Source: Pandoraea pnomenusa (lineage in GTDB: Bacteria > Pseudomonadota > Gammaproteobacteria > Burkholderiales > Burkholderiaceae). From it: a stretch of DNA of 64,000 nt. The DNA is taken from NCBI RefSeq assembly GCF_000767615.3, contig NZ_CP009553.3, positions 3,844,001 to 3,908,000 of the forward strand. Direction: 5' to 3'. A program made the translations under genes and the position numbers. This document shows positions 5,576-26,087 of the stretch, one piece after another. Below the pieces are notes generated by a model, which was not told the origin of the DNA, made no database searches, and saw only the letters and a list, made by a program, of their open reading frames with translations. How positions within the stretch are numbered: position 1 is the stretch's first letter; each line of letters begins with the position of its first letter.

Positions 5576-6210
5576 ACGAACTCCCGCAGGTAGACAAAGG
5601 TGAAGACACAGATCCAGACCAGGTCCAGGAAGTGCCAGAACAGGCTCAGACATTGCAGGCGGCGTCGCACCACCGGATCGAAGCCGAAGCGGCCGATCTG
5701 ATGAATCATCACCACCAGCCAAAGCAGGCCGCAAGTCACATGCAGACCGTGCGTGCCCACCAGGGTGAAGAATGCCGAAAGGAACGCACTGCGCCCGGGG
5801 CCCGCGCCTTCGTGGAGCAATGCCGTGAACTCGTGGACTTCCATCGAGACGAACGCCGCGCCCAGCGCGAACGTGATCCACAACCAGCGCTGCACGACCG
5901 CCTCGTTGCCCGGGCGCATCGACAACGATGCCAGCCCGAACGTGAAACTCGAGAGCAGCAGCAGCACGGTTTCCCCGAGCACGAACGGCAGCTCGAAGAG
6001 CTCGCGTCCGGTTGGCCCGCCGGCGGTGCTCTGCGCCAGCACGCCGAACGTGGCGAACAGCACGCAGAAGATGAGACAGTCGCTCATCAGGTAGATCCAG
6101 AAGCCGAGCGTCGTGGTGGCGCCGCTGTCGTGGTGCGCGTGATCGGTGTGGTCGTTGGCCGGCGCCTTCGCGCCGCGACCGGAATTGGAGTGAAGGGTTG
6201 CCGAGGACAT
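5572..6210 (-). CDS. cyoC: Cytochrome bo3 ubiquinol oxidase subunit III
   Basis: The 212-residue product has a histidine-rich N-terminus ([12 protein letters not shown]) and five hydrophobic segments typical of heme-copper oxidase subunit [76 protein letters not shown] and the C-terminal [12 protein letters not shown]. The [19 protein letters not shown] and HGLHVTCG motifs are characteristic of CyoC. It overlaps cyoB by one base and cyoD by four, so the operon is translationally coupled. Confidence 0.94.
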
Positions 6211-8216
6211 CAGGCCGCCTTTTGCAGGGATTGACGCGCGGGAAGCGCAGCACGCAGGCCGGCGAAGCGGGCGCTTTCGATACGCTCCACTTCCGCCGCC
6301 GGCACGTAGTAATCGACGTCACGGTCGTAGGCGCGCCACAGGAAAATGGCGATCGAGGCGACGAGGCTTGCGCCCGCCAGCCACCAGATGTGCCACACGA
6401 GCGCGAAGCACATCACGCCGCTGGCGACTGACACGAGGAATCCCGTTCCGGTGTTGCGCGGCATGTGGATGTCGTCGTACCGCGCCGGCTCGCGCCATGC
6501 CAGGCCCCGCGCCTTGTCGTCCCAATGCTGCTCGAGCGAGTCGATGTGCGGCACGTGAGCAAAGTTGTAGAACGGCGCGGGCGACGACGTGGCCCATTCG
6601 AGGCTGCGCGCGTCCCACGGATCGCCGGTCAGGTCGCGATTGGCGTTGCGATCGCGAATACTCACGACCAATTGCACGCCGAACGCCAGAATGCCGAGCC
6701 CGATGAGCGCCGCGCCGATCATCGCGACGACGAGATACGGCTGCCAGTCGGGTTGCACGTAGTGGTTCATGCGGCGCGTCATGCCCTTGAAACCGAGCAC
6801 GTAGAGCGGCATGAAGGCCAGGTAGAAGCCGACCAGCCAGCACGCGAACGAGATCTTGCCCCAGCGCTCGTTGAGCGTGAAGCCGAAGACCTTGGGGAAC
6901 CAGAACGTGATGCCTGCCAGGCACCCGAACACCACGCCGCCAATGATCACGTTGTGGAAGTGCGCCACGAGGAACAGCGAGTTGTGCAGCACGAAGTCGG
7001 CGCCCGGCACGGCGAGCAGCACGCCCGTCATGCCGCCGATGGCGAACGTCACCATGAAGCCGATGGTCCAGAGCGTGGCGGAGTGATAGCGGATACGCCC
7101 CTGGTACATCGTGAACAGCCAGTTGAACAGCTTCACGCCGGTCGGAATCGAAATGATCGTGGTCATGATGCCGAAAAAGGCGTTGACGTTCGCCCCCGAG
7201 CCCATCGTGAAGAAATGGTGCAACCACACGAAGAACGACAGGATACCGATCGACGAGGTGGCGTAGACCATCGATTTGTAGCCGAACAGCGGCTTGCGCG
7301 AGAACGTGGCGATGATCTCGGAGAACGCGCCGAACGCGGGCAGGATCAGGATGTAGACCTCCGGGTGCCCCCAGATCCAGATCAGGTTCACGTACATCAT
7401 GGCGTTACCGCCCAGTTCGTTCGTGAAGAAGTGCATGCCCAGATAGCGATCGGCGGTGAGCAGCGCGAGCGTGGCGGTCAGCACGGGGAATACGGCAACG
7501 ATCAGGATGTTGGTGATCAGCGCGGTCCACGTGAACACCGGCATCTTCATGAGATTCATGCCGGGTGCGCGCATGCGCAGGATGGTCACGATGAAGTTGA
7601 TGCCCGTGAGCGTGGTGCCGAGCCCCGATATCTGCAGCGACCAGATGTAGTAATCCACCCCGACGGTCGGGCTGTACCCGAGTTCGGACAGCGGCGGATA
7701 GGCGACCCAGCCGGTGGCGGCGAAATCGCCCACGAACATCGACATCATCACCAGCACGGCGCCCATCGCCGAAAGCCAGAACGAGAGCGAGTTCACGAAC
7801 GGAAATGCCACGTCGCGCGCGCCGATCTGCAGCGGCACGATCACGTTCATCAGGCCGAGCACCAGCGGTGTGGCCACGAAGAAGATCATGATCACGCCGT
7901 GAGCGGTGAAGATCTGGTCGTAGTGATGCGGCGGCAGGTAGCCCGCCTCGCCGCCCGCGGCGATGGCCTGCTGCGCGCGCATCATGATCGCGTCGGCAAA
8001 GCCCCGCAGCAGCATCACGAGCGCGAGCACGATGTACATCACGCCAATGCGCTTGTGGTCGACGGACGTGATCCACTCCGTCCAGAGATACCCCCACTTC
8101 CGATAATACGTAATGGCGCCGAGCAGCGCCGCGCCGCCCAGCAGCACCACGGCGAGCGTGCCCATGATGATGGGTTCGTGCAGCGGGATGGCGTCGAGAT
8201 CGAGTTTTCCGAACAT
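6210..8216 (-). CDS. cyoB: Cytochrome bo3 ubiquinol oxidase subunit I
   Basis: The 668-residue catalytic subunit carries heme b, heme o3 and CuB and pumps protons while reducing O2. The heme/copper signature [15 protein letters not shown] gives the CuB histidine and the cross-linked tyrosine. The two further CuB histidines are in WLHHFFTMG, and the heme axial histidines are in [11 protein letters not shown]. The N-terminus includes [20 protein letters not shown]. Length matches CyoB of other proteobacteria. Transcription runs cyoA-cyoB-cyoC-cyoD. The intergenic gap to cyoA is only a few bases. Confidence 0.97.
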
Positions 8217-9523: not shown

Positions 9524-12500
9524 TCAGAAGCGCCAGGTCGCCGACACCGATCCGGCAACATCCGCGTTGCCGGCCTTGTAGAAGTTGCTCGACACCGCGG
9601 CGCCGAACACGATGCGCTTGGCCATGCGATACGACACACCGGCCTGCAAGCCGAGGCTGTCACGACCTACGACTTCGCTGCGCGTCGTGAACGATGCCCC
9701 CGGATAACCGGCAAAGCTGGCACTTTGCGTTACAGCGCCTCCCGTCAGTTCGTGGTTCCAGGTCGCTTGCAGGTTGGCCGTGAGCGCATTGCCGGAGATC
9801 ATCGGCAGATCGAAGCGCAATTCACCGCCCAGACGAGTGCGCAGCGAGTTGAACGTCTTGCCGTCGAGATGCAGGCGCGCGCCGTCGGCATTGTCTTCGG
9901 TCAGGCTCGGGCGATACAGCGCGGTGTAATCGAGCGCCGCCAGGGGACCGGCACTCACCGTGCTGCCAAGCTGCCAGCGCCATCCGCCGCCGACCGTCGC
10001 CGACGCGGTGGCACCGGTCCACGTGCCGCGCGGCGACGCGCTATAGCCGTTCACCGCGATGGAGCGATCCATACGGCCGTCCTCGACCCCCACGCGTGCC
10101 AACGCGAACGCATGCGGGCCCGCGTTCGGGTCCGGCGCGAAGCGCGCTTGCACACCGACATCGAACGCCGTGGTCTTGCCCGAGCCGGGCGTCTGGCCGT
10201 CCAGCCGGGTCGACTGGCCGCTGATCGCGCCGTGCACGCCAAACGTCCAGTCGCGCCCCTCGCCCGCCACCCGTTCGGCGCCGAACACCACGCCGTAGGT
10301 ATTGCCGCTGGCCCCGGCCATGTCGCCGTCGCGACCGCGCCAGTAGCCGCTGCCGAACGGCATGGCGAATCCACGCCAGTTGCCCGTGAGCGCGCCCTCG
10401 CCTGCGCCCTTGGCACCGTCCGCGCCGACAGCGGCAGCCACCATGTCGGTGATCTGGCGCTCGCGCAGCAATGCGCCGGTGAACATCGCACCGTAGGCCG
10501 CCGGTGTGAGTTGCGGCAATGCCCTGGCGATATCGCTGCCATTCGCCGCCGAGAAGTCGAGCGCCGTGACGAGCGGTTGCAAGTCGGCCCCCACGCTGCC
10601 CGCGATCTGGTCCAGTGCCGCGCCTACCCGACGGCTGTTGCCGTCCGCGCCATATTGGGAGTAGGCATTCGCGGCCCGCGCGAGCTGGACACGGTAGGTG
10701 TTGTTGCCCAGCGACGACGCGGTGGCAAGCAGCGTCGGCGACGACAGCAGCGTGGTGACGCTGGCGAAAGCGCCGTTGACGCTCGACGCGCCCAGCCACT
10801 GGTTCGAGGTGACGGTGAAACCGTTCGCGTACCAGCTGCGCTGCGGCGCAATCGCGAGCGTGCCGTCCAGCGTCGCAGTGCCCGACACGATCAGCTTGCT
10901 GAACGTGCCGTCTCCCGACAGCGAGGACACGAGGCGGCCGGTGCTCGTTTGCGTGTAGTCGCCCGCGATGCTGATGAAGCCGCCCGTGAGCAGCGGCGCG
11001 ACGGTGCCCGCGTTGACGAAGCCGGCCGTGGGATCGAGCGTGTAACGGCTGTTACCGGTCAGCGTGGCGCCGCTGGAGACGGCAACGTCGTGCACCGTAT
11101 GATCGCCATTGATCTGCGTCGTGCCGCCGATCAGGGCGAGCGACAGGTTGCCGCCGACGATATTGCCGTCGTAGCGCAGGTTGAACGTGGGGTCGGCCTG
11201 TGCCGTTGCGACACCGTTCGCATCGGGGGTCAGACCGAAGCTCAGTCGCGTCAGGCGCAACGCGCCACTGGCGTCACGCTGGGCGTACTTCGAGATGATG
11301 TCGCCGTAGAGCGCTGCGCCGCGCATGATGTTGATCTGCCCGACATAGCCGTTCTCCGACATATACAGCGACGCATAGCTCCCCGCGAGGCGGCCGGTAA
11401 TATCGGCGCGCGCGACAAGGGGGCCGTCGAGCTCGTCGAGCAGCGCCAGAGGTTGTCGTTGCGAGTCGTACTTCACGAAGATGTACGAGCCGCGATAGTC
11501 GCCGCTGTAGCCATCGTCGCCGTAATCGCCGAGCGCGTTGTGTCCGAAATCGAAGCTCGCGGCGATACCGTTCGCGCCCAGCGCCTGAACGTCGCCGCGC
11601 TGCACGAAGGTATGATTCTTGCCATACGTGAACATCACGCCACGGCCATTGCTGCCGTCCGCGTAGATGCGCGTACCGGGGAGCACGGTCACGTTGTTGC
11701 CCACGCCGTCCACGCGAATGCCCGCGCCGCCCGCGCCGATCGTGAGCAGGTCGGCGCGTTGCGACACGGTATTGCCGCTGCCGTAGATGTGCAGCCCCAG
11801 GCCTTGCGTCGCGGTGTTGTACGTGTTCGGTATGTAGTCCGTGCCGTCCGCGTTGCGGCCGAAGAACGGGTTGTCGTTCACAACGCTCAGGCCATCGTTG
11901 TAGATCGATCGCCCGAAGAAATTGCGCCGGTCGATGTTGTAGCCGATGTCTTGCAGCATCGCCAGCTCCGCCTCCATGAACCCCGTGTAATTGCGGTACG
12001 TCTGGTGGCTCATCAGGCTGTTCTTGAGCTCGATATGCGAGAGAATCGGCGAGTCGTAGGTGGTCTGCTCGAACATCGCCTTCACCGGGATATGTCCGTT
12101 CATGGCCCCCGCGAGGACCTCCTGCACATGGTCGCCGGTGAAATAGCCGTTGTCCTTGCGAATGTCGAACACGGACGGGTCGTACATGCTCGCGTTTGCC
12201 GGCGAGATGATCACCTGGCCTGGCCGGGCAGGATTCCCATTGTCGTCGTACAGATGCGCGGACCAGTCGTCGAGCACGGTGGCGAACTGGGCGTAAGGCA
12301 AGCCGTTCGCCGTGTAAGTCCCGACGAACATGTTGGTCCCGACACCCAGCGCGTGGGCGACTTCGTGTGCCATGACGGCCGTCATGTCGGCCTTCTCGGT
12401 CAATGGAATTTGCGAAGCGGCGTACGGTGCCGTCGAGAAGTCCATCTTGCCCAGCGTAATCTCGCCATGTGCCCCGAAGTAGGTCGGGCCGCCCAGATTG

Positions 12501-12910
12501 CTGTTCTGCAACGCCGCCTGCACGAGCGTCGGGTTCTGGTTGCCGACCGCGCGCGGATCCGTCGCTTCGTACACATACGGACTTTGCGCGTGCGCTCCCC
12601 CGTCGGTGCTCATGCCGACATTGATGATCGCCGGCGAGCGCCCAGGCGCCACCCTGATGATCTCCGCCCAATAGTCCAGCGCGGCTCGCACCTGGTCGGT
12701 CTGCAGCGGCGAAAGCGTGCCCGTCGATCTCACGGGCGTCACGCCGTCGTTGCCGAAGGTGTAGGGGTCGTCCGTCGGCGAGAACAGCCGCGCCTGTATG
12801 AACGGCGTGCCGTATCGGTCGTTGATGTCGATCGACGTTACCGCCATCGCTGACGACATCATCGTGCAGAGCGCCGCGAACGCAACGCTCGTCATACGAA
12901 TGGTGCTCAT
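9524..12910 (-). CDS. Autotransporter with a zinc-metalloprotease-like passenger domain
   Basis: The 1128-residue product has a Sec signal ([20 protein letters not shown], cleavage near AMA). The N-terminal passenger contains [10 protein letters not shown] at about residues 182-191, an HExxH zinc-binding motif with a downstream glycine. The third metzincin histidine (HExxHxxGxxH) is absent, so the third ligand is unknown. A glycine-rich beta-helix-like region follows (for example [20 protein letters not shown]). The roughly 270-residue C-terminus is an autotransporter beta-barrel ending in the outer-membrane signature SATWRF. Type Va secretion would place a putative protease on the cell surface or release it. 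The gene is divergent from the micropeptide pair and ends at a strong terminator. Confidence 0.85.
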
Positions 12911-12990
12911 TCAGTACTCCGTATCCATTTATGGCTTCCGTAAGGCTTTGTAATGCGAAGCGAATGGTACGGAGCGGTCCCTCGGACGTC

Positions 12991-13108
12991 ACTGCGATTA
13001 ATACGGGGTTTTTCGAAAATCGCCCGTAACCCACCGTGGAATAAGGACTTTTTCTTCGCCGGAGGTCTCGATCCGGGCACTTTCGTCCCGTCTTGTATTA
13101 ATCACAGT
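12991..13108. promoter_or_regulatory. Mirrored promoter-like elements shared by the autotransporter and the micropeptide genes
   Basis: On the plus strand TTTCG (13081-13085), nine bases, then GTATTAATCACAGT (13095-13108). On the minus strand TTTCG (13018-13014), nine bases, then GTATTAATCGCAGT (13004-12991). The two copies differ by one base in the 14-base block and have identical spacing, and a GGGC precedes each by two or three bases. They point outward to the two divergent genes. This looks like twin promoters or operators for one factor. The spacing does not fit a standard sigma-70 pair. Confidence 0.55.
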
Positions 13109-13210
13109 TTCGCCACTCGGGGGCGACGACGATACTTCACTCAACGGCTGGCACGACACCGCGGCAGCCGGAAACCGAAACCACGACGCATCGACACAAG
13201 GAGAAACACC

Positions 13211-13285
13211 ATGCCCGCACTCATCGCTTACGGCTTCGCCTCGGTCCTCGGCCTCGTCGGCGTTATCGCCCCGATCTTCGGCTGA
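13211..13285 (+). CDS. 24-residue hydrophobic micropeptide
   Basis: The start at 13211 follows a strong ribosome binding site (AAGGAG, seven bases spacing). The product is MPALIAYGFASVLGLVGVIA followed by PIFG, essentially a single membrane segment with no charged residue. It lies downstream of the mirrored promoter element and 38 bases before a second small gene, with a terminator after both. I do not recognise the family. Possibilities are a membrane-acting peptide (type I toxin-like or TisB-like), a regulatory small membrane protein, or a signalling peptide. It was called on the ribosome binding site and the transcription-unit architecture, not on homology. Confidence 0.6.
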   Translation: MPALIAYGFASVLGLVGVIAPIFG

Positions 13286-13323
13286 CCCCTGCCCCCCAAG
13301 CCCAACGACCCACGGAGAACCTC

Positions 13324-13428
13324 CATGACCCATCTCATCGACCTCATCGACAGCCTGCTCGGCAACGACGTGTGCGTGGAAGCCGGGATGCAATGCGCCG
13401 TCCACGTTGGGCACGTCTTCGGCTTCTG
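13324..13428 (+). CDS. 34-residue micropeptide with two cysteines
   Basis: The ATG at 13324 follows a GGAG ribosome binding site at seven bases. The peptide starts with an amphipathic stretch (MTHLIDLIDSLLGNDV). It continues with CVEAGMQC, giving cysteines 17 and 24, and ends in HVGHVFGF. The paired cysteines and histidines could form a disulfide or bind metal, which is speculation. It is the second gene of the 13211-13428 unit and precedes a good terminator. No family is recognised. Confidence 0.57.
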
Positions 13429-13487
13429 ACGCGCTTGCCGGAACGTCGGCGACGGCGCATCGCCGGTGGACGGCGAAAAGCCTTCGG

Positions 13488-13514
13488 AAGGGACCGCCTG
13501 CGCGGTCCTTTTTT
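13488..13514 (+). terminator. Rho-independent terminator after the micropeptide genes
   Basis: GGACCGC (13491-13497), a four-base loop and GCGGTCC (13502-13508) form a perfect stem that can be extended by AAG/TTT pairing. Six T residues follow (13509-13514). It closes the short transcript carrying the two micropeptide genes and separates it from the response regulator gene at 13644. Confidence 0.85.
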
Positions 13515-13643
13515 CCTTGTGCCGCCCCCTTCGCGGCACCGCCTGTCGTGCCGGCCTCGCGGGCACGGACGACGGAAATTTCGCCGTCCGGTGATTTTTT
13601 AGTACGATTTCACCATTCCACATAAAAAACCGGGGCCAGCGGG

Positions 13644-14246
13644 ATGTCATCTCCCACCAAAGTTTTCTGTATTGAAGACGACCACGACTCAGCCGACCTG
13701 ATCCGGGAAGATCTGACCGATCGGGGCTATACCGTCAAGGTGGCGCACGACTTCTCGAGCGCCCTGGCAACGCTCGCGTCGTTCATGCCCGACGTGATCC
13801 TGTGCGATGTGAACGTGCCGGGCATGACCGGCTTCGAGTTCCTGGAAAGCGCGCGCGGCATCATCCAGGGCGAGCGCAAGATTCCGTTCATCTTCCTCAC
13901 GGGCAACGCCGACAAGGCGTCGATCATGCGCGGGCACAGCACCGGCGCTGACGAGTACATGCTCAAGCCGGTCGATTTCGACGTGCTCGACACCGTCATC
14001 CGCAAATACACGGACCACGACGAGCCGGAAGACGGCGCGCCCCTGCCGTTCGGCCTGACCAAACGCGAAGTCGAGGTGCTGCAATGGTCGGCGCGCGGCA
14101 AGACCTCGGCCGAGATCTCCATCATTCTGGATCTCGGCAAGCGCACGGTGGATTTCCACATCGACAACGCCCGCGAAAAGCTCAACGTCGCCACGCGCAC
14201 CGAAGCCGTGGTGCGGGCCGCCCTGCTCAATATCATTCAGCTTTGA
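13644..14246 (+). CDS. Response regulator with LuxR-type DNA-binding domain
   Basis: The 200-residue product has a receiver domain with the acidic pocket near residues 11-13 (CIEDDHD) and the phosphoacceptor at about D55 (VILCDVNVPGMTG). The conserved threonine is in FIFLTGN and the lysine in MLKPVD. A LuxR/NarL helix-turn-helix occupies the last 65 residues (LTKREVEVLQWSARGKTSAE, TVDFHIDNAREKLNV). It is followed after 30 bases by the histidine kinase gene, presumably its partner. It was placed on the plus strand by domain content; the antisense frames are shadows. The targets are unknown; the micropeptide unit just upstream is one candidate. Confidence 0.92.
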   Translation: MSSPTKVFCIEDDHDSADLIREDLTDRGYTVKVAHDFSSALATLASFMPDVILCDVNVPGMTGFEFLESARGIIQGERKIPFIFLTGNADKASIMRGHSTGADEYMLKPVDFDVLDTVIRKYTDHDEPEDGAPLPFGLTKREVEVLQWSARGKTSAEISIILDLGKRTVDFHIDNAREKLNVATRTEAVVRAALLNIIQL

Positions 14247-14276: not shown

Positions 14277-15878
14277 ATGGCTAAAGCCTCGTCTTCCCCC
14301 CGCAAGCCGCTCCCGATCCGGGGGCGCATGTACCTCCTGCTCGCCCTGTGCCTCGCGGCCATGATCGCCGTGGGCGTGATCGTGCATCGAGAAGTCGACG
14401 CCGCGCAGCAGCGCGCGATTGCCGCCGAGCGCACGCAGATCGAGCATCTGAGCGTGCTCGAGGAACTCAACGACTACATCTCCGACTTCCGCACCGTCGA
14501 ATCCGAAGCGCTCGCCCCGATGCCGCCCAAGGCGCTCGCCGACATCCGGGCCGCCGCCAACGAGTTCGACGTCAAGATCCAGGCCGCGTCGCAGCGCTAC
14601 CAGAAGGTGCTCGTGCACGACGAATTCCGCCTCGCCTTCGGCAAGTTTCAGTCACAGTGGGCACAGTACCGCCGCGCGTCGAACCAGGTATTCCAGTTGG
14701 CGCAGGCCGGCAAGCTGGTGGACGCCGCAAAGCTCTATCGCGGCGAGTCGAACAATAAATACACGCAGGCGAACAGCACGTTCGGCGCGCTGGTGTTTCG
14801 CAGCACGGAAGCGCTGATCAAGGACGTCGAGGCGAAGAACGCGGCCGCCCGCCATCGCCTGCTGCAAATCGACGCGCTGATCGCCGCCATGATCGTCGTC
14901 ACGCTGCTGTGCCTGATTTACGTCGACGCCGTCATTCTCAGGCCGCTTACCCGCCTGATCCGCATGTCGGGCAACGCCGTGACCGGCAAGGCCAGGTTGC
15001 GTCTGCCGTGGTTGCAACGTGGGGACGAAATCGGCACGCTGTCGCGCTCGCTGGCCAAATTCCAGGAAAGCACGTCGTCGCTCGTTCGCAACCAGAAGCT
15101 CGCCACGGCGAAGAACACCATCCTGCAGCGCGCCCTGGCCAACGAGGAACGGCTCAACAACTTCCAGAAAACGTTCCGGTCCATGGCCACGCACGAATTC
15201 CGCACGTTGCTCAGCGTGATCGACGGACACGCGCAGCGGCTGTTGAATCCGCGCAACGAAGAGACCGATTCGCGGCCGCGCTATACGAAGATTCGCGAGG
15301 CCGTCGCCAAGCTCAACCATCTGATCCAGAACTGGCTCGACGCCGCGCAAAGCGCCTCGCTCGAAGACCCGAAGTTCGGCAAGCGCGCGGAGCTCTCGCT
15401 CGTGGCCCTGCTCGAGGACGTGCGCGGCGTTGGCACCGACATGTTCCCGAACGCCAGCATCACGGTGCAGGCCGCGCCGGAGCTGGACAGCCGCATGATC
15501 GGCGACAGCAACGTGCTGTTCCATGCGTTCATCAATCTGGTGAGCAACGCCACGAAGTACACGATGGCGCCGCCGGCCATCGACATCGGGGTGAGCGATG
15601 CGGGCGAGGCATTGCGTGTGGTGCTGCGCGACAACGGCACCGGCATTCCGGAAGACGAACTCAAGGAAATCTTCCAGATGTCGTTCCGCTCACGCAGCAA
15701 CGCGGTGCTCGAAGACGGCTCGGGCGTGGGGCTCGCCGTGGTCTATGCGGCCATCGAATTCCACAAGGGCACCATCGACGTCGCCAGCCAGGTCGGCGTG
15801 GGCACCACGTTCACCGTGACGCTGCCCAAGTCGCCGCAAGGCTCGCAGACGTCCGGATCCGACGAAGCCGCGGCCTGA
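14277..15878 (+). CDS. Membrane sensor histidine kinase
   Basis: The 533-residue product has a transmembrane helix near residues 18-37 and a helical periplasmic sensor of about 160 residues, resembling four-helix-bundle (4HB_MCP-like) sensors. A second helix lies near 199-220, followed by a HAMP linker (VILRPLTRLIRMSGNAVTGK). The phosphorylated histidine is about H306 in ATHEFRTLLSVIDGH. The usual proline of the H-box (HEFRTPL) is replaced by leucine. The ATPase domain has the N-box (FINLVSNATKY), DNGTGIP and GSGVGLAVV. It pairs with the upstream response regulator. The signal sensed is unknown. Confidence 0.92.
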   Translation: MAKASSSPRKPLPIRGRMYLLLALCLAAMIAVGVIVHREVDAAQQRAIAAERTQIEHLSVLEELNDYISDFRTVESEALAPMPPKALADIRAAANEFDVKIQAASQRYQKVLVHDEFRLAFGKFQSQWAQYRRASNQVFQLAQAGKLVDAAKLYRGESNNKYTQANSTFGALVFRSTEALIKDVEAKNAAARHRLLQIDALIAAMIVVTLLCLIYVDAVILRPLTRLIRMSGNAVTGKARLRLPWLQRGDEIGTLSRSLAKFQESTSSLVRNQKLATAKNTILQRALANEERLNNFQKTFRSMATHEFRTLLSVIDGHAQRLLNPRNEETDSRPRYTKIREAVAKLNHLIQNWLDAAQSASLEDPKFGKRAELSLVALLEDVRGVGTDMFPNASITVQAAPELDSRMIGDSNVLFHAFINLVSNATKYTMAPPAIDIGVSDAGEALRVVLRDNGTGIPEDELKEIFQMSFRSRSNAVLEDGSGVGLAVVYAAIEFHKGTIDVASQVGVGTTFTVTLPKSPQGSQTSGSDEAAA

Positions 15879-15975: not shown

Positions 15976-17514
15976 TCACGCCGGTGAGTTGGCGTCGACC
16001 GAATTGCCCGCGCCGCCGAGCGCCTTGTAAAGCGCCATTCGGTTGTTGAGACGATTCAGGCGGACCTGGGCTTCGGCCGCTTGCGAATCGCGCAGCGACT
16101 TTTGCTGCTGCAGCCAAGGCTGTATGTCGATCGCACCAGCGAGGTAGCGCGAGCGCAGTAGCGACTCGGCGCGCTGTGCCTGCGCCAGCGACAGGACACG
16201 CTGCTCGCTTTCCCTGGTCAGCTGGTCGCGCGCGGAGAGCGCATTCTCGACCTCGCTCAGCGCCGTGTACAGGCTCTTGCGGAAGTTCACCACGTTTTCC
16301 TCGTATTGCGTTTGCGACACCTTGATCTGCAACTGCATGGTGTTCCACTGAATGAACGGCAAGGTCAGTCCTGCACCCAGGGCCGCGATCGGGTTGCTCA
16401 GCACGCGCTCGAGCGTGCTGCTCGTGGTGCCGAGCGAGCCCGTGAGGGAGAACGTCGGGTAAAAGCCGGTGCGCGTGACGTCGACATTGGCCAGCGATTC
16501 GCGCAGACGCCACTCCGCCGCGCGCAGGTCGGGGCGCCGTCCGAGCAGCTCGGCAGGCAGACCGGCCGGCACGTCAGGCAACGCCTGCGTCGGCAGCGTC
16601 GACGGCTCGGCCGCCATCTGCTCGGGCGCGCGGTCGAACAGGATCGCCAGCGCATTGCGGTTCTCGGTGCGCTGCTGCAATTGCTGCGTGAGCGTCGCCC
16701 GCTGGTCGGCCAGCGACTGTTCGGCCTGTGCCACGTCGAGCGCCGAGACCGCGCCGGCGGCGTATCGCGAACGCGCCAGTGCCACCACGCGCTCGGCATA
16801 GGCAATGTTGCTCTGCGAGTACGCGATGATCTGGTTCAAATAGCCGAGGGTCCAGTAGTACTGGGCCGTCTGGCTGATGATGGACAGGCGCGCCGCTTCG
16901 CGATCGGCCTGTGTGGCCTCGTATTCCCAGCGGGCGGCGTCGCGCTGGGCGGCGAGCTTGCCCCACAGGTCGACCTCGTACTGCGCCGTGGCGTTCAGGC
17001 TGCTGCTTCGCGCCATGGTTTGGGTGTCGAGCGTGCGCGACACTCCGCCCTTGCCGTTCACGCTGACCGACGGCGTGAGATTCGTGTCGGCCAGCCCCGA
17101 CTGCAACTGCGCTCGGTACGCGCGAATGCCGGCCGCTGCGAGATCGGTGTTGACGGCCAGCACCTCGGCGATCAGGCGGTCGAGTACGGGGTCGCCGAAC
17201 GCGCGCCAGAATTCGGGCGCGATCGCGGCAGCCAACGGGTCAACGGGGTCCACCGGGTCCACCGGGTTCGATGCGTTCGATGCCATCGACACGCGCGAGG
17301 CGGCCACGCCGGCGTTCGGCCCGGGCATGGCCGGCGGGTTCATCGAGGCAACGGGCGCCCCGGCCCACTGCGCGGGCACCGGCACTGCCGGCAGCGGATC
17401 GTGGCGCACGCCGGCGCAGCCGGCAAGCAGCACCGCGGCGCTGGCGAGCGCGAGCCACGTGCGCGCCGGCTTCTCGAGGCGCCTTGCGGCATTCTTGGGA
17501 GTCGTTCGGATCAT
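15976..17514 (-). CDS. NodT/OprM-family outer-membrane efflux lipoprotein
   Basis: The 512-residue product starts at 17514 with a lipoprotein signal (LALASAAVLLAGC). Two outer-membrane efflux protein repeats of the TolC fold follow (for example NTDLAAAGIRAYRAQLQSGL, YEVDLWGKLAAQRDA, and LGRRPDLRAAEWRLRESLAN). An unusual linker, NPVDPVDPVDP, sits between the lipid anchor and the first repeat. As the third gene of a macA-macB-like operon it should be the outer-membrane channel of the pump. A longer frame from 17736 runs back into macB and is rejected. The substrate is unknown. Confidence 0.9.
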   Translation of the reverse strand: MIRTTPKNAARRLEKPARTWLALASAAVLLAGCAGVRHDPLPAVPVPAQWAGAPVASMNPPAMPGPNAGVAASRVSMASNASNPVDPVDPVDPLAAAIAPEFWRAFGDPVLDRLIAEVLAVNTDLAAAGIRAYRAQLQSGLADTNLTPSVSVNGKGGVSRTLDTQTMARSSSLNATAQYEVDLWGKLAAQRDAARWEYEATQADREAARLSIISQTAQYYWTLGYLNQIIAYSQSNIAYAERVVALARSRYAAGAVSALDVAQAEQSLADQRATLTQQLQQRTENRNALAILFDRAPEQMAAEPSTLPTQALPDVPAGLPAELLGRRPDLRAAEWRLRESLANVDVTRTGFYPTFSLTGSLGTTSSTLERVLSNPIAALGAGLTLPFIQWNTMQLQIKVSQTQYEENVVNFRKSLYTALSEVENALSARDQLTRESEQRVLSLAQAQRAESLLRSRYLAGAIDIQPWLQQQKSLRDSQAAEAQVRLNRLNNRMALYKALGGAGNSVDANSPA

Positions 17515-17525
17515 TTGGCCGTACC

Positions 17526-19601
17526 TCAATCGCGTGCCAGCGCTTCCACCGGGTCCAGCCGTGCGGCATTGCGCGCCGGCATGAAACCGAATACCACCCC
17601 GATGAGCGTCGAGCACAGAAACGCCGTGACGATCGAGCCCATCGAGAACACCATCTTCCATTTCGCGACGAACAGCGCGAAGACGAAGCTCGCGCCGAAC
17701 GACAGTGCAATGCCGATCGCACCGCCCATCAGGCATACCATCACCGCCTCGACCAGGAACTGCTGCATGATGTCGCTCTGACGCGCGCCGACGGCCATGC
17801 GAATGCCGATTTCCCGCGTGCGTTCGGTCACCGACACGATCATGATGTTCATCACACCGATCCCGCCCACCACCAGTGAAATCACGGCGATCAGCGAGAG
17901 CAGCAGCGTGAGCGACTGGCTCGTCTTCTCGACCGTCTTCACGATGCTGTCCATGTTGTAGGTGAAGAAGTCCTTGCGCCCGTGGCGCTGCGTCATGAGT
18001 GTCTCGAGGCTCTTTTCGGCGGCCTTGCTCGGCTGGCCGTCACGTACCCGCACGGTAATGCTGTCGACGTTGCGCTGGCCAAACAGGCGCCCCGCGGCGG
18101 TGGTGTACGGCACCCAGATGTTCAGGCTCTTCATGTCCCCGAACGCGCTCTTCTTCTCGGCGGTCACGCCGATCACCACGCAAGGCAGGTTGCCCACGAA
18201 GATCACTTCGCCCAGCGGATTCGGATTCGCGCCGAAGAGCTTGCGACGCGTGTTCTGATCGATCACGGCGACCTGCGCCTGACGCCGCACTTCGTCGGCA
18301 CCGAACGCAATGCCCTGTGCGATGTTCAGCCCGCGCACCTGGAAGTAGTGCTCGCCCACGCCGGTCACCATCGCGCTCGCGTCGATGTTGCGATAGCGCA
18401 GCAGCAGGCTGCGCGCCGTCTCCGGTGTGGCGCTGTCGACATAGACCTGCTCGGACAGGGCCAGCACGTCCTCGGGCACCAGCGTCTGGATCGTCGTGGC
18501 GCGGTTGTCTCCCCAGTCCTTGCCGGGATAGATGTTGATCGTGTTCGTGCCGATGCTCCCGATCTCGGCCAGCATGTAGCGTTTGGCGCCCTCGCCGATG
18601 GCCACGATCGAGACCACCGACGTGATGCCGATGATGATCCCCAGCATCGTCAGGAACGTGCGCAGACGATGCGAGACCAGCGCGATCCACGCCATGCGGA
18701 ACGCCTCGGCGAACCGGTCGATGCCGCCGGCCCAGCGACGCGGCGCGGCCACCGGGTCCGGGGCGCCGGTGTGACCGGCCTGCGGCGCCGCCGGGTCGGG
18801 CCGGCGCGCCGCGCCCGGATCGTCCGGCGCTGGCTCGACGTCGTCGCCCGGCATCTCCTCGGGTGGCTCGACCACGGGCGTGTTCGCCCGGTCGGCCACG
18901 ATCTCGCCGTCGCGAATCTCGATGATGCGACGGGCGTGCGCGGCGACGTTTTCGTCGTGGGTCACGATGATGACCGTGTGCCCCAGCGCATTGAGCTCCT
19001 TCAGAATGCGGATGACTTCCCTGCCGCTGCGCGAATCGAGCGCGCCTGTCGGTTCGTCGGCGAGAATGACTTCACCGCCGTTCATCAACGCGCGCGCGAT
19101 ACTCACGCGCTGCTGCTGACCGCCCGAGAGCTGGCTCGGACGATGATGCATGCGGTCGGCGAGTCCAAGGCGGGCGAGCAGCATCTCCGAGCGCACGCGA
19201 CGCGACGCATGCGCGGCGCCGGTGTAGACGGCCGGCATTTCCACGTTCGACGCGGCGTCCAGATGGGGCAGCAGGTGATAGCGCTGGAAGATGAATCCGA
19301 AATGCTCCCGGCGCAACTGCGCGAGCGCGTTGGCGTCGAGATCGCGGGTCTCGCGCCCGGCCACCCGGTAGCTGCCCTCGCTCGGATGATCGAGGCAGCC
19401 GAGGATGTTCATCAGCGTGGACTTGCCCGAACCGGACGCCCCCATGATGGCGACGATCTCGCCGGCCTCGATGGCGAGGTTGACATCGTGCAGCACCACG
19501 ACATCGCGCTCCCCCGCCGGAAACCGGCGGGTAATGCCCGAGAGCGACAGCATCGGGACCGACCCGGAATCGACGGTGGGCGGGGCGGAAGTGCTCGACA
19601 T
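17526..19601 (-). CDS. macB: MacB-type ABC transporter, fused ATPase and permease
   Basis: The 691-residue product has an N-terminal ABC ATPase: Walker A GASGSGKST near residue 55, signature LSGGQQQR, Walker B VILADEPTG and the switch histidine in VTHDE. A linker rich in Pro, Ala and Asp leads to a MacB/FtsX-type permease. That has one N-terminal helix, a large periplasmic domain and three C-terminal helices (LTLLLSLIAVISLVVGGIGV and others). MacB drives efflux from the periplasm through a TolC-like channel, exporting macrolides, lipopeptides or siderophores in known systems. It is 18 bases after macA and 11 before the outer-membrane gene. The gene symbol is by family only. Confidence 0.92.
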   Translation of the reverse strand: MSSTSAPPTVDSGSVPMLSLSGITRRFPAGERDVVVLHDVNLAIEAGEIVAIMGASGSGKSTLMNILGCLDHPSEGSYRVAGRETRDLDANALAQLRREHFGFIFQRYHLLPHLDAASNVEMPAVYTGAAHASRRVRSEMLLARLGLADRMHHRPSQLSGGQQQRVSIARALMNGGEVILADEPTGALDSRSGREVIRILKELNALGHTVIIVTHDENVAAHARRIIEIRDGEIVADRANTPVVEPPEEMPGDDVEPAPDDPGAARRPDPAAPQAGHTGAPDPVAAPRRWAGGIDRFAEAFRMAWIALVSHRLRTFLTMLGIIIGITSVVSIVAIGEGAKRYMLAEIGSIGTNTINIYPGKDWGDNRATTIQTLVPEDVLALSEQVYVDSATPETARSLLLRYRNIDASAMVTGVGEHYFQVRGLNIAQGIAFGADEVRRQAQVAVIDQNTRRKLFGANPNPLGEVIFVGNLPCVVIGVTAEKKSAFGDMKSLNIWVPYTTAAGRLFGQRNVDSITVRVRDGQPSKAAEKSLETLMTQRHGRKDFFTYNMDSIVKTVEKTSQSLTLLLSLIAVISLVVGGIGVMNIMIVSVTERTREIGIRMAVGARQSDIMQQFLVEAVMVCLMGGAIGIALSFGASFVFALFVAKWKMVFSMGSIVTAFLCSTLIGVVFGFMPARNAARLDPVEALARD

Positions 19602-19619: not shown

Positions 19620-20813
19620 TTACTGTGCCTGGCCGGCGTTGGATGACGTATCGACAGGCGCGGACTCGCCCGCCTCGCCGATCACGACGCGCTCGCCGGC
19701 CGAGAGGCCTTCGCGCACTTCGACCCGGACGTTGTTGTTCAGGCCGGTCACGATCTGGCGCGTGACGGCCTTGCCGTCGTCGCCGAGCACGCGCACTTCG
19801 TAGCGATTCGGCCCGACGCGTTTGCCGAGCGCCGCCACCGGCACGTTCAGCGCCTGCCTGGCCGTGCCGAGCAGCACGTTGACCTGTGCGGTCATGGAGA
19901 TGCGCAGGCGATGGTCGTCGTTAGGCACGTCGAACAGCGCGTTGTAGAACACGGCCGTATTGTTGCGCGTGGCGCCGCCGCCCAGCGTGCTCTGCGTGTC
20001 GAGGTAATTCTGCGGTGCGGGCTCGATGGCGCGCAGCTTGCCGTAATAGCGCTTGTCGGGGTCGCCAAGAATCGTGAAGTACGCCGTTTGTCCCGGCTGG
20101 ATGCGGATCACGTCGGCTTCCGAGACCTGCGCCTTGACGGTGATGGTGCTCACGTCGGCGAGTTTCAGGATCACCGGCGCCTGCTGCTGGGCGACCACGG
20201 TCTGGCCTTCCTGGGTGACGATGGCGACGACCTCGCCGTCCATGGGGGCCTCGATGCGCGTGTAGCCGACACTGGCCCGCGCCGATTCGATCTGCACACG
20301 GGCCTTGCGGATCTGCGCGTCGAGCCCGAGCAGCGTGGCGCGCTGGGTGTCGAGCGCGGCCTGGGCCGCTTCGTAGTCCTGACGCGACGTCGCCTCATCG
20401 GGCAGCATCTGGCGCTGGCGCGCGAAGGCGAGCTCGGCCTGGCGAAGCTGCGCCTGCGCGGTGCGCTTTTGCGCCTGAAGATTCTGCTCGTCCGCCTCGG
20501 CCGAACGCAGGCCGTTCTGTGCAAGCACCGGATCAATCTGCGCGAGCCATTGTCCCTTCTTGACCTTGTCGCCGAGCTTGACCTTGAGCGACTTCAACTG
20601 ACCGGTGACCTGCGCACCCACGTCGACCTGCTGCACGGCGCCCAGTGTGCCCGTTGCCAGCACGGTATTTTCGAGGTCGCTGCGCTCGACCCTGGCACTG
20701 ATGTACTGCGGCGGCTTCGGGGTCGCGAGACTGCGCAGCCCCAGCACCACGAGCACGACGAGGGCAACGAGGCTGGCGACGAGGTAGCGTCGGCGGCGAA
20801 TGAACTGGATCAT
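19620..20813 (-). CDS. macA: MacA-type periplasmic adaptor (membrane fusion protein)
   Basis: The 397-residue product starts with one membrane anchor (RYLVASLVALVVLVVLGL). Lipoyl-like halves follow (ATGTLGAVQQVDVGAQVTGQ), then a long coiled coil (AEDEQNLQ-like helices from about 100 to 165) and beta-barrel domains (TVKAQVSEADVIRIQPGQTA). This is the standard MacA architecture linking MacB to the outer-membrane channel. It is the first gene of the minus-strand operon. The intergenic region upstream has no clear operator. Confidence 0.92.
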   Translation of the reverse strand: MIQFIRRRRYLVASLVALVVLVVLGLRSLATPKPPQYISARVERSDLENTVLATGTLGAVQQVDVGAQVTGQLKSLKVKLGDKVKKGQWLAQIDPVLAQNGLRSAEADEQNLQAQKRTAQAQLRQAELAFARQRQMLPDEATSRQDYEAAQAALDTQRATLLGLDAQIRKARVQIESARASVGYTRIEAPMDGEVVAIVTQEGQTVVAQQQAPVILKLADVSTITVKAQVSEADVIRIQPGQTAYFTILGDPDKRYYGKLRAIEPAPQNYLDTQSTLGGGATRNNTAVFYNALFDVPNDDHRLRISMTAQVNVLLGTARQALNVPVAALGKRVGPNRYEVRVLGDDGKAVTRQIVTGLNNNVRVEVREGLSAGERVVIGEAGESAPVDTSSNAGQAQ

Positions 20814-21241: not shown

Positions 21242-21258
21242 CTTGTACAAATCACAGT
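21242..21258. promoter_or_regulatory. 17-base motif shared with the promoter of the other micropeptide locus
   Basis: CTTGTACAAATCACAGT at 21242-21258 matches CTTGTATTAATCACAGT at 13092-13108 at 15 of 17 positions. Here the motif is on the plus strand, 68 bases before the TRIC-family start at 21326 and 100 bases upstream of the divergent micropeptide start. The TTTCG element seen at 13081 is absent. It may be a binding site of a shared regulator. Confidence 0.35.
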
Positions 21259-21325
21259 GCGGGCGCGGCCCGATCGCGGCCGGATCGTGCTGGTGATATA
21301 TTTCCCCGGCATTCGAAGGGACATT

Positions 21326-21988: not shown

Positions 21989-23344
21989 CTAGCGCGACGC
22001 CGGTGTCTCGAACGCCTCGGCCGACACCGGCCCGCCAAAGCCGTACTTCGCTCGCGGTCGCAGCATGAACGCCTGCGTGCGCTGCTCCGTGACATGGGCC
22101 ACCCAGCCCGCCGAACGGCCGACGATCCACATCGCGGTGGACACGCCGTCGGGCAATTGCAGCGCGCGCGCGAGCGTGACCAGCCCCGTCGCAAGACCGG
22201 GATGTGCGTTCAACTCGATGCGCATACGCTCGAGAAACGCCAGCGTCCGGCGGGTGTTCTCGCGCGATGCGGCGTCCATCGCGCCTTTTCCCGTTGCCGC
22301 CATGAGATCCGCCGCGCACTGCATCATGAGATCGGCGCGTGCGTCGCCGCCCGGATACAGCGGATGGTTGAATCCGAACAGGCTTGCGCCGTATTCGCGT
22401 ACGCGATCGACCCGCGAGTCGAGTGCGTCGTAAGGCTCGCACAACAGCAGCGTTTCGATCTTCTCGGTGCTGGTGCCCGTCGTGAAGCCGATATGCGAGC
22501 CGATGGCCGCCGCCACGCAACCGAACAGATCGGCGTTGGTCGACGCCGCCACACGCGCCGAGAACGTCGCCGGGGCCAGTTCGTTATCGGCCAGCACGAC
22601 CAGCGCGGCATTCATCGCACGCAGCCGCATCGGCGTGAGCGCGATGCCGGCCGCGCGCAGCATGTGCGTGGCGATGTTCTCCCCGTTGCCGCGCGCCGCG
22701 AAGCAGCGCCCGGGTCCGAGAAAGCCGACGCAACCGGCCATGCAATGCAGCATCATGCGCGCGGCCTGGACGGCGGCGCCGTCGGCAAGCTCGCGTGCGC
22801 CGCGCTCGTGCATCGCGAGCGCGAACGGCACCATGCCCAGCAGATTGCCGATATCCGCGCTCGCGACTTCGTCGTTGTACGTCGCGAGAAAGCGCAAAAC
22901 GTCGGGCGGTGTGTCCTGCATTGGCCACTCGGCAATGCTGTCCTGCCAGATGCCGGTCATGAGCAGATGCACCACCGACTCGAACGACGCACCGCCTGCC
23001 GCCAGGTCGATCGCCAGACGGTTGCGATAGCGGGGGCCGTGCGGCGTGATCTGCGTGATCGCGGAATGCAACACCGGGTCGCCGAAACGCATCGTCGATT
23101 CCGCCACCGCACCGGTCGGCGCCCGCCCGCGTTTGCGCGTGGCCAGGCGCTCCACGTCGCGCCGCAGGTACAGGCTCTTGCGCCCGTCTTCATGCGGCCT
23201 CGCGCGGATCAAGCCCCGGCTCACGTAGGCGTAAAGCGTGGCGGGCTTGATGGCGAGCATGCTGAGGACTTCCTCGCGCGTCATCAGGTCGGTCGGTTGC
23301 GTCATCGTCTGTCTCGTCTGTCTCGTCGGTCTCGTCGGTCTCAT
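21989..23344 (-). CDS. Citrate synthase-like protein with N-terminal MerR-type helix-turn-helix
   Basis: About 451 residues are encoded from the ATG at 23344, which follows AAGGGG at five bases; the ATG at 23305 is an alternative. A small DNA-binding-like domain comes first (MTREEVLSMLAIKPATLYAY, then VSRGLIRARPHEDGRKSLYL). It precedes a citrate/2-methylcitrate synthase fold with GNGENIATHMLRAAG and GASLFGFNHPLYPGGDAR, the latter holding the catalytic histidine region. Such fusions may act as enzymes, regulators or both. A condensing reaction with an acyl-CoA is plausible. The gene is divergent from an AAHS-type transporter and a decarboxylase/aldolase pair, suggesting a shared pathway. Substrate is unknown. 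Confidence 0.82.
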   Translation of the reverse strand: MRPTRPTRQTRQTMTQPTDLMTREEVLSMLAIKPATLYAYVSRGLIRARPHEDGRKSLYLRRDVERLATRKRGRAPTGAVAESTMRFGDPVLHSAITQITPHGPRYRNRLAIDLAAGGASFESVVHLLMTGIWQDSIAEWPMQDTPPDVLRFLATYNDEVASADIGNLLGMVPFALAMHERGARELADGAAVQAARMMLHCMAGCVGFLGPGRCFAARGNGENIATHMLRAAGIALTPMRLRAMNAALVVLADNELAPATFSARVAASTNADLFGCVAAAIGSHIGFTTGTSTEKIETLLLCEPYDALDSRVDRVREYGASLFGFNHPLYPGGDARADLMMQCAADLMAATGKGAMDAASRENTRRTLAFLERMRIELNAHPGLATGLVTLARALQLPDGVSTAMWIVGRSAGWVAHVTEQRTQAFMLRPRAKYGFGGPVSAEAFETPASR

Positions 23345-23350
23345 CTGCCC
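23306..23350 (-). repeat. Nine-base tandem repeat at the start of the citrate synthase gene
   Basis: Five tandem units read on the plus strand as CGTCTGTCT (twice), CGTCGGTCT (twice) and a degenerate CATCTGCCC. On the coding strand, from the ATG at 23344, they encode an Arg-Pro-Thr/Arg-Gln-Thr repeat. Nine bases keep the frame, so copy number can vary without breaking the gene. It also sits just before the alternative ATG at 23305. Confidence 0.8.
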
Positions 23351-23437
23351 CTTGCACCTCAGGCGTTGCAGCGGGCGGTGATTCGTGCGGATCCTGCGCC
23401 TTTCGGCGGAATTCGCGACACATGATGCCATAGGTAT

Positions 23438-23462
23438 ATTGACTTTAATAATCAATATTGAT
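23438..23462. promoter_or_regulatory. Palindromic operator candidate between the citrate synthase and MFS genes
   Basis: ATCAATATTGAT at 23451-23462 is a perfect 12-base palindrome, preceded by a related half site ATTGAC at 23438-23443. It lies in the AT-rich divergent promoter region. A regulator bound here could control both genes; the HTH-bearing citrate synthase itself is a conceivable one. Confidence 0.4.
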
Positions 23463-23525
23463 AAACAAAAAACCGCCCAGTAAAGTCGACTCCGAAATTC
23501 ACGACAAAGACACTGCGGAGCCACG

Positions 23526-24929
23526 ATGCCGGCCTCCGACAGGTCGCCCCTTCGGAGACAAGGCATGGCCCATGACATCGCGCAGACGCCGTCGGAACGC
23601 ATCGACGTTCGCGAGACGCTGCAATCCGCGCCACTGGGCGCGTTTCACTATCGGCTAGGCACGCTGCTTGCGCTGATCCTCCTGTTCGACGGCTTCGATC
23701 TCTACAACGCCGCCTACATCGTGCATGACGTCACCTCGCTCTGGCACCTCTCGCCAAGTCAGATCGGCGTACTGCTGTCGTGCGGGCTGGCCGGCTTCGC
23801 CGCGGGCTCGGCTGTCTCGGGGCCGTTCAGCGACCGGATCGGGCGACGCCGGGTGCTGCTCGCCGGCATCTGGCTCTCGGGCCTGATGAGTCTGGCGATC
23901 GCCGTCTTCGCGCACGACCTGATGTCGTTCATCGGCCTGCGTTTCGCGATGGGTATTTCGCTGGGGCTGTTGATGCCGGTGGCCGTCACGTACATCAACG
24001 AGATCGCACCCAAGCGCAGCGCGAACGTCTTCACGATCGTGTTCTTCACCTGTGGATGGATCGGCGGTGCCACGGCCTCGGGCTTCATCGCCGCCTGGCT
24101 GATCCCGCAATACGGCTGGCAAAGCATGTACTTCGTCGGCGGCCTGTCGGTCGTGCTCGCGCTCGTTTTGCAGTTCGTGTTGCCCGAGTCGGTCTCTTTT
24201 CTCGCCAGTCGCGGGCGTCAGGACGCCGTACGCGCGCAACTCGCGCGTCTGTGGCCCGCGCGCGCGCCGGAATTCGAAAAGGCGACGTTCACCTCGCCGG
24301 ACGCCGGCATCAAGGCGGGCTCCGTGGCCGCGCTGTTCTCGGCCGGCTTCCGCCGTCAGACGATCTGCTTCTGGGCCATGGGAGCGTTGTCGTTGTTCTC
24401 GTCCTACGGACTGTCCGGCTGGCTGCCGACGATCATGCTCAAGCGTGGCGAGAATTTGTCGACGAGCTTCGCCTATGGTTCGCTGCTGGTCTTCGCCTCG
24501 GCGTTCGGTAGTCTGATCTGCGGCGTGCTCGCCGACCGCATCGGCAACCGCCGACTGGCAATGTCGCTCGCGTGGCTGTGCGGTGCGGCCGCCATTGCCA
24601 TGCTCGCGCTCGCCTCCGGCGGCTCGGTGACGTTCGTGGGGATCGTCGTGGCCGGCATGTTCGTCATCGGCACGCAGACCGTGCTCAACAACCTGGTTGC
24701 CGTGAGCTATCCCACGGAGATTCGCAGCACCGCGGTCGGGCTCTACCTCGGTATCGCCCGCGTGGGCGCCATGTGTGGCCCGGCCATCGCGGGCGTGCTG
24801 CAACAACTCACCGGCGGGGCCGGCACGATGTTCTTCGTGCTCGGCGCCGCGCTCGTCACGGCCGCGGTGCTGGTGTTTCTCGTGGCGCGCCCCGAGCGCC
24901 TGCCCAAGGCCCCCGCCTTCGGTCACTGA
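23526..24929 (+). CDS. MFS transporter, aromatic acid:H+ symporter (AAHS)-like
   Basis: The 467-residue product has twelve predicted membrane helices. The first bears the AAHS signature LLFDGFDLYNAAYIV, and loop 2-3 has the MFS motif FSDRIGRRRVLLAG. The mid loop is short and the second half has LADRIGNRRLAMSLAWLCG. AAHS permeases import aromatic acids such as benzoates, phthalates or vanillate in symport with protons. The ATG at 23526 follows GGAG; an ATG at 23565 is also possible. Position upstream of a decarboxylase-like gene and a class II aldolase supports uptake of their substrate. Confidence 0.87.
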   Translation: MPASDRSPLRRQGMAHDIAQTPSERIDVRETLQSAPLGAFHYRLGTLLALILLFDGFDLYNAAYIVHDVTSLWHLSPSQIGVLLSCGLAGFAAGSAVSGPFSDRIGRRRVLLAGIWLSGLMSLAIAVFAHDLMSFIGLRFAMGISLGLLMPVAVTYINEIAPKRSANVFTIVFFTCGWIGGATASGFIAAWLIPQYGWQSMYFVGGLSVVLALVLQFVLPESVSFLASRGRQDAVRAQLARLWPARAPEFEKATFTSPDAGIKAGSVAALFSAGFRRQTICFWAMGALSLFSSYGLSGWLPTIMLKRGENLSTSFAYGSLLVFASAFGSLICGVLADRIGNRRLAMSLAWLCGAAAIAMLALASGGSVTFVGIVVAGMFVIGTQTVLNNLVAVSYPTEIRSTAVGLYLGIARVGAMCGPAIAGVLQQLTGGAGTMFFVLGAALVTAAVLVFLVARPERLPKAPAFGH

Positions 24930-25037
24930 GGGCTGCCCCCAGCCTCCCTCCGGCAAGCTCGGCGTTCCACGCGCCGCATCCAACGACATCGGGCGTCGCC
25001 GCGACAAGGCGCCGACGCCCGCGCAAGGGATCGCATC

Positions 25038-26027: not shown

Positions 26028-26087
26028 CGTGCGCCAACGTCGAGCCTCCGCTCGTTTCATCGCATTTCCACTTCAATCGCCAACACC

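Follow-up and report, generated by a model that had tools for sequence, protein, structure and literature searches.

Two micropeptide genes of Pandoraea pnomenusa belong to a putative promoter-defined family linked to a two-component system and a MacAB-type pump

What do two tiny genes that match no known family do beside a two-component system of Pandoraea pnomenusa? The genes lie in a 64,000-nucleotide stretch (contig NZ_CP009553.3, positions 3,844,001 to 3,908,000; hereafter the window) of a 5.39-Mb genome. The original prediction, made from the letters of this stretch, described two open reading frames (ORFs) of 24 and 34 residues, each with a ribosome binding site (RBS), ending at a terminator, and proposed a type I toxin-like, signalling or secreted-peptide role. 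The coordinates and the RBSs bear out this layout; the gap between the two ORFs is 39 bases, not the 38 claimed. The unit consists of the following features.

13198..13203, + strand: RBS AAGGAG of micropeptide 1
13211..13285, + strand: micropeptide 1, 24 aa, MPALIAYGFASVLGLVGVIAPIFG, hydrophobic and uncharged
13314..13317, + strand: RBS GGAG of micropeptide 2
13325..13429 including the stop, + strand: micropeptide 2, 34 aa, MTHLIDLIDSLLGNDVCVEAGMQCAVHVGHVFGF, with CX6C, a tail of the type [GA]HxF[GA][YF] and a net charge of -4
about 13488..13519, + strand: intrinsic terminator of the peptide unit

Pfam gave no match for either micropeptide up to an E value of 0.1, in agreement with the claim that they belong to no known family. 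A longer ATG ORF (12953-13285) contains ORF 1 in frame. Since the probable -10 element at 13131 falls within this longer ORF, the start giving 24 aa is the plausible one. The terminator has the core GGACCGC/GCGGTCC in a 10-bp stem with one mismatch, followed by a T-rich stretch, and its fold reaches -18.4 kcal/mol (z -2.5). A simple terminator scan did not list it. A separate scan of our own found a like stem, AAGGACCGC...GCGGTCCTT, 3' of the last tiny ORF in 17 of the 18 loci in which the unit stands beside the response regulator gene (regulator-adjacent loci), the exception being G015. The only Rfam match, a sub-threshold CRISPR-repeat match at the terminator, was taken as chance.

The check proposed at the outset was conservation of the peptides and their starts in related genomes. 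With an ATG start and the two lengths as criteria, the 34-aa ORF was found in all 18 regulator-adjacent loci and the 24-aa ORF in 17, separated by a spacer of 39 to 50 nt; both are thus kept with their ATG starts, and the view of one probable transcription unit of conserved small genes held. A looser listing of ORFs of 12-70 aa returned the same ORFs with one exception: ORF 2 of G008, which has a weaker RBS (GGGGAA), was missing from it. A third tiny RBS-preceded ORF occurs in 15 of the 18 loci, and a fourth in two of those 15. The window's genome has just two tiny ORFs at this locus and therefore carries a reduced version of the unit. Both cysteines of the 34-aa peptide are kept in 18/18 regulator-adjacent copies. 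Across the genus, 19 of 32 genomes encode the 34-aa peptide, as such or within a fusion. G007 and G018 each carry, on contig C2, two copies of a 49-aa form that joins the first two peptides, and one cysteine is missing from two of these four copies.

The uncorrected pN/pS of ORF 2 was 0.51 vs. 0.83 and 2.14 in the shifted frames. For ORF 1 it was 0.71 vs. 0.70 and 2.25, and pN/pS does not set ORF 1 apart from one of its shifted frames. The case for ORF 1 therefore comes from its length, start, RBS and promoter, not from pN/pS. Taken with their conservation, both tiny genes look real.

The peptides appear confined to the genus. At the DNA level, 41 genomes were searched (25 Pandoraea, the window's own among them). 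Matches came from 19, all Pandoraea, and some of these matches are short and to other units. A profile of the 34/49-aa family retrieved 13 proteins, each either 34 or 49 aa long. Every one with a named organism came from Pandoraea, and the eight with a source name were each called hypothetical or uncharacterised. The same profile gave three marginal matches in 398 other genomes of the order, which were taken as chance. No solved structure was found for the 34/49-aa family, and distant blastn of the 711-bp region against phages and plasmids gave no match. The titles and abstract openings covered by our literature search contained nothing describing these peptides. A Burkholderia biofilm two-component paper (PMC5192318), which deals with a CreB-family regulator, was set aside.

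Upstream of the unit, the window contains a putative promoter that recurs across the genus.

13095..13112, + strand: putative regulator box GTATTAATCACAGTTTCG of the peptide promoter, 36 bp (start to start) before GATACT and ungapped in 37 aligned sites
13131..13136, + strand: probable -10 element GATACT, invariant in the 37 aligned sites
13137..13158, + strand: conserved start of the transcribed region, TCACTCAACGGCT...

These parts (box, 18-bp spacer, GATACT and transcript start) span 68 bp that are gapless in the 37 aligned sites, with 22 invariant columns. As 36 of the 37 sites were chosen by a pattern containing GATACT, only the invariance on the box side counts as independent evidence. 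Seven G007 and G018 sites, all on contig C2 (L068, L070, L099, L146, L147, L149 and L150), are not part of the alignment. A search of the 32 genus genomes with the core motif gave 45 sites in 23 genomes vs. one for the reversed pattern; one analysis of these took 43 distinct sites, an identical pair being merged and one G020 site lying outside the loci read. The upstream box likewise gave 45 matches in 23 genomes, and its reversed pattern none. These box matches comprise 40 promoters of the peptide kind and five variants (GTATTTATCTCAGTTGCG) on G007 and G018 contigs without a micropeptide downstream. A sequence model of the promoter found 40 near full-length matches in 23/32 genomes, the window's own contributing two; 37 of the 40 match by construction, the model having been built from them, and the other three were known already. 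It also gave 15 partial matches in the genus, mostly from G007 and G018, with one from G043. Five partial matches in 398 other genomes of the order were taken as chance, with filters strict enough to lose weak matches.

We compared what follows these sites with what follows random positions. An RBS-preceded ORF of 18-52 aa stood at the right place in 38 of 40 distinct sites vs. 272 of 5000 random positions. The 40 scored sites were 38 full promoters, all with a tiny ORF, and two box sites without one (L191 and L195); sites with fewer than 700 bases left were skipped and identical sites merged. The G008:C5 unit, dropped by this length rule, carries a 29-aa ORF. Many genomes have more than one unit, and the second one in the window's genome, located elsewhere, encodes a 26-aa peptide, MPLLPVLAEGAMYVLGLLSAASPMFQ. 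Judged by its promoter, the unit in the window is one of a putative genus-wide, promoter-defined micropeptide family with dispersed copies. The earlier interpretation is supported in part; this family was not visible from the window alone.

The seven C2 sites (L146, L147, L149, L150, L068 and L070 in G007, L099 in G018) keep the core GATACTTCACTCA, and a TCAGGT...ACCTGA-like operator replaces the usual box. Three of them (L070, L146 and L147) precede a 49-aa ORF with an RBS, two (L068 and L099) a fused 49-aa ORF without a good RBS, and the last two (L149 and L150) have no tiny ORF. Loci L075, L076 and L159 were not used. At L194 (G007), the box variant GTATTTATCTCAGTTGCG lies upstream of a 429-aa ORF (1139-2428) with a below-cutoff leucine-rich-repeat match; this ORF was not seen intact at the related variant-box sites L191, L192, L193 and L195. 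Single-peptide units of the MPA...AAPFFQ type occur beside a porin-like gene at L072 (G010), L073 (G009) and L074 (G006), where the other neighbour is presumably purH, named by eye.

A conserved transcript start, and a terminator between the peptides and the regulator, could also mean that the ORFs are leader peptides or chance ORFs and that the RNA matters, for example in read-through control into the response regulator gene. Single folds of many units suggested a 5' hairpin, which we rejected: an alignment of 44 sites showed no covariation for it (66.6% paired vs. 65.5% shuffled), and no consensus RNA structure was predicted from that alignment. The missing structure speaks against an RNA role, as do ORFs of fixed length with pN/pS below 1 (a weak control for ORF 1). 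Moreover, the kinase gives one strong match per genome, so that none follows the other units. We consider this explanation scarcely probable at all.

As claimed originally, the unit lies upstream of a two-component system, and beyond this system are the genes of a MacAB-type exporter.

13644..14246, + strand: response regulator with receiver and LuxR-type helix-turn-helix, probable activator
14277..15878, + strand: sensor histidine kinase with 4HB_MCP sensor and HATPase
15976..17736, - strand: outer membrane channel of the MacAB-type exporter
17526..19601, - strand: MacB-like ABC transporter
19620..20813, - strand: MacA-like adaptor

The kinase is present in 24 of the 32 genus genomes, among them all 23 with the promoter; G043, with its one partial promoter match, has no kinase. 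Those 24 kinase-bearing genomes also have the channel, at an identity of at least 70% over the matched stretch; it never lies more than 27 kb from the kinase, and in 14 genomes the distance is 0.25 kb or less. Seven of the remaining eight genomes gave no channel match at E 1e-100, and the eighth (G019) has a 46% relative. Four further loci were checked for MacA and MacB, and all four have both next to the channel gene. G011 keeps the kinase, regulator and channel; it gave no promoter match and no 34-aa match, nor was the autotransporter described below found in the stretch read. In a one-gene tree, the eight kinase-less genomes are five outside the main clade and a nested clade of three (1.00 as printed); the tree is rooted on G003, whose copy is another paralog, and the main-clade node is weak (0.54 as printed). 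The kinase distribution therefore appears to reflect about one gain and one joint loss. With so few independent events, the co-occurrence supports, and does not prove, a single regulator-pump-peptide system.

Control of the units by the regulator is suggested by the shared box and by its co-occurrence with the adjacent pair, and we infer that the adjacent response regulator binds the box. Better evidence for one regulator is given by the rigid spacing of box and promoter and by a second, divergent box. No box within three mismatches was found near the exporter genes of the window; a four-mismatch match occurs at 21245-21262 on the opposite strand, about 430 bp upstream of macA. Elsewhere in the window we observed a 537-aa citrate-synthase-domain protein (21989-23602), whose region preceding this domain matches a helix-turn-helix below the cutoff, and an 801-aa ORF (23655-26060, - strand) for which Pfam gave nothing at E 0.001. 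The window's genome has three CyoB-like oxidase subunits (window 6210-8216; G000:C1:1611000-1612979; 4265829-4267781), and 21/32 genus genomes, this one included, have a relative of at least 94% to the copy next to the peptides.

The divergent box faces an autotransporter gene on the other side of the unit.

9524..12910, - strand: autotransporter, 1128 aa, with a PF03797 barrel and below-cutoff metallopeptidase matches
12964..12969, - strand: probable -10 element TACCAT of the autotransporter promoter, its position read from the sequence
12987..13004, - strand: divergent box copy GTATTAATCGCAGTGACG facing the autotransporter

This box is found within two mismatches in 17/18 regulator-adjacent loci, G024 being the sole exception, indicating that the autotransporter is probably co-regulated with the peptides. 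Its named relatives are from Pandoraea. Its passenger has a HEVAHALG motif and below-cutoff M10 and M48 matches, which suggests a metalloprotease. The expected co-conservation of peptides and autotransporter held for the most part, with a full autotransporter across the unit in 16/18 loci; the autotransporter is nonetheless dispensable, being a remnant in G007 and absent from G024 while the peptides persist in both. A G009 unit with other peptides has no autotransporter in the 12 kb read around it. In G018 none was seen between autotransporter and regulator, its peptides being on C2.

The chemistry of the peptides bears on their possible role. All 66 distinct peptides are neutral or negative, with at most two K/R residues each. 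An aromatic residue (F, W or Y) is among the last three residues in 59 of them vs. 24 (sd 3.7) after shuffling. Given that many peptides are related, the count by sequence cluster is fairer, and it gave 9/9 vs. 3.1 expected. The first peptide is strongly hydrophobic and uncharged, with a best 19-residue hydropathy of 1.75-2.15, and hydrophobic moments of the peptides run from 0.25 to 0.72, many peptides being amphipathic rather than clear transmembrane segments. No Sec signal or other signal sequence was seen in the peptides. The two kept cysteines of the 34-aa peptide would be in keeping with an oxidising compartment. An AlphaFold model of the fused 49-mer shows two helices at low confidence (mean pLDDT 57), which we take as a hint only.

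Small, hydrophobic peptides would suit a type I toxin paired with an antisense RNA antitoxin, one of the roles first proposed. Such a toxin has one ORF per unit, whereas each unit here encodes between one and four peptides that differ from one another, are non-cationic and have open RBSs, under an activator-type, dispersed shared promoter; we regard it as very improbable. A scan for promoters at 12900-13660 on both strands found none; it missed the conserved promoter too, and so says little on an antisense RNA. A secreted or signalling role, also among the first proposals, is the one we favour.

Our preferred reading, to which we give a probability of roughly 0.4, is a regulon under two-component control whose micropeptides lack leaders, act on membranes, are probably exported and work like phenol-soluble modulins (PSMs) without being members of that group. 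The kinase would phosphorylate the response regulator encoded next door, which would then bind the 18-bp box at its rigid distance upstream of the GATACT -10 element. The activated promoter would give short, well translated mRNAs ending at the terminator, each encoding between one and four peptides, 23-34 aa long (49 aa if the first two are fused), and the same regulator probably also turns on the divergent autotransporter. The hydrophobic to amphipathic, non-net-positive, aromatic-tailed peptides may insert into the inner membrane, from where the linked MacAB-type pump would most likely extract and export them. Outside, they would act as membrane-active, surfactant or biofilm peptides, like the staphylococcal PSMs. 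The ORFs with their conservation, the shared promoter, its dispersed copies, the linkage and the co-occurrence can be read from the sequences; the steps of translation, export and action outside the cell are ones we infer.

Several findings count against this reading: the few independent events behind the co-occurrence, the state of G011, the lack of a close box near the exporter genes, the variant-box sites not followed by a micropeptide, the different operator of the C2 sites and the uptake of MacB substrates from the periplasmic side. Many of the peptides could also simply remain in the inner membrane. This is the main rival: small inner-membrane proteins, not exported, whose part under stress would be to tune the sensor kinase, the exporter or the envelope. 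Two-component control of small membrane proteins is well documented, with MgrB and SafA as examples. This precedent, the hydropathy of the first peptide and the lack of a visible signal sequence all fit. Like MgrB and SafA, the Pandoraea peptides are tiny, hydrophobic and apparently regulated together with a sensor kinase; those are single proteins, however, whereas Pandoraea has several peptide kinds in dispersed units. One regulator would need fewer peptides than this, with as many as four dissimilar ones in a unit and more than one unit in many genomes, and the many amphipathic peptides are not clear transmembrane segments. We judge retention in the membrane somewhat unlikely.

Two other explanations share export with the preferred reading. 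The peptides might be pheromones that are exported, perhaps cut near the aromatic tail, sensed by the adjacent kinase and fed back on their own promoter. An aromatic tail common to unlike peptides and a kinase with a 4HB_MCP-type sensor would fit this. Receptor-paired pheromones tend to diverge, though, and the kinase-adjacent 34-aa peptide is well kept from species to species; in addition, one promoter type drives many different peptides. This makes pheromones improbable. About equally improbable is a multi-peptide leaderless bacteriocin used against competitors. The leaderless tandem arrangement near a peptide-type exporter, the scores of MacB on bacteriocin-type export models (below their cut-offs) and the two fused copies on contig C2 in each of G007 and G018 are in its favour. 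Known leaderless bacteriocins are mostly cationic, whereas none of the 66 peptides is net positive, and no immunity gene was recognised beside the units, without a dedicated search. Garvicin KS and aureocin A70 share with the Pandoraea units several leaderless tandem peptides of about 30-34 aa; the Pandoraea units differ in that their peptides have no net positive charge, in the lack of a recognised immunity gene and in their conserved regulon promoter.

In staphylococci, PSMs of about 20-45 aa are encoded in tandem without leaders, with one RBS per peptide. They are served by the response regulator AgrA and the ABC exporter Pmt, and some classes have low or negative charge. Pandoraea matches them, from sequence alone, in tandem leaderless tiny ORFs with an RBS each, and also in an adjacent two-component response regulator (its control putative), in the low or negative charge and, by virtue of linked MacAB-type genes and presumed export, in an ABC exporter. 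It differs in its Gram-negative host, its LuxR-type regulator in place of AgrA, its MacAB-type exporter in place of Pmt, the CX6C in one peptide and one promoter dispersed over several loci. Pfam and the family profile revealed no sequence relation to PSMs.

According to a review (PMC5985334), MacAB-TolC aids in exporting enterotoxin STII, a small protein, and MacB takes its substrates from the periplasmic side, which STII reaches by Sec. A small disulfide peptide leaving by a MacAB-type pump would be common to both cases, with export presumed in Pandoraea; the difference is that STII becomes periplasmic by Sec and the Pandoraea peptides have no visible Sec signal. Because STII takes the Sec route (PMC5985334), a pump that takes inserted peptides directly from the membrane would be a novelty. 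A bolder proposal, possible but doubtful, is a dedicated secreted-micropeptide system of Pandoraea, with its own two-component regulator, its own MacAB-type exporter pulling hydrophobic peptides directly from the inner membrane and a dispersed, promoter-defined leaderless family with a common aromatic tail, of a kind not known in Gram-negatives.

Pandoraea is known from the airways of patients with cystic fibrosis. If the preferred reading is true, this would be the first PSM-like peptide system in a Gram-negative genus, as far as we know and the literature searched goes. The peptides are near or under the usual annotation limit, and the constant promoter offers a handle on them: one response regulator would govern every unit. 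The system would thereby make the export of leaderless hydrophobic peptides by a Gram-negative bacterium testable.
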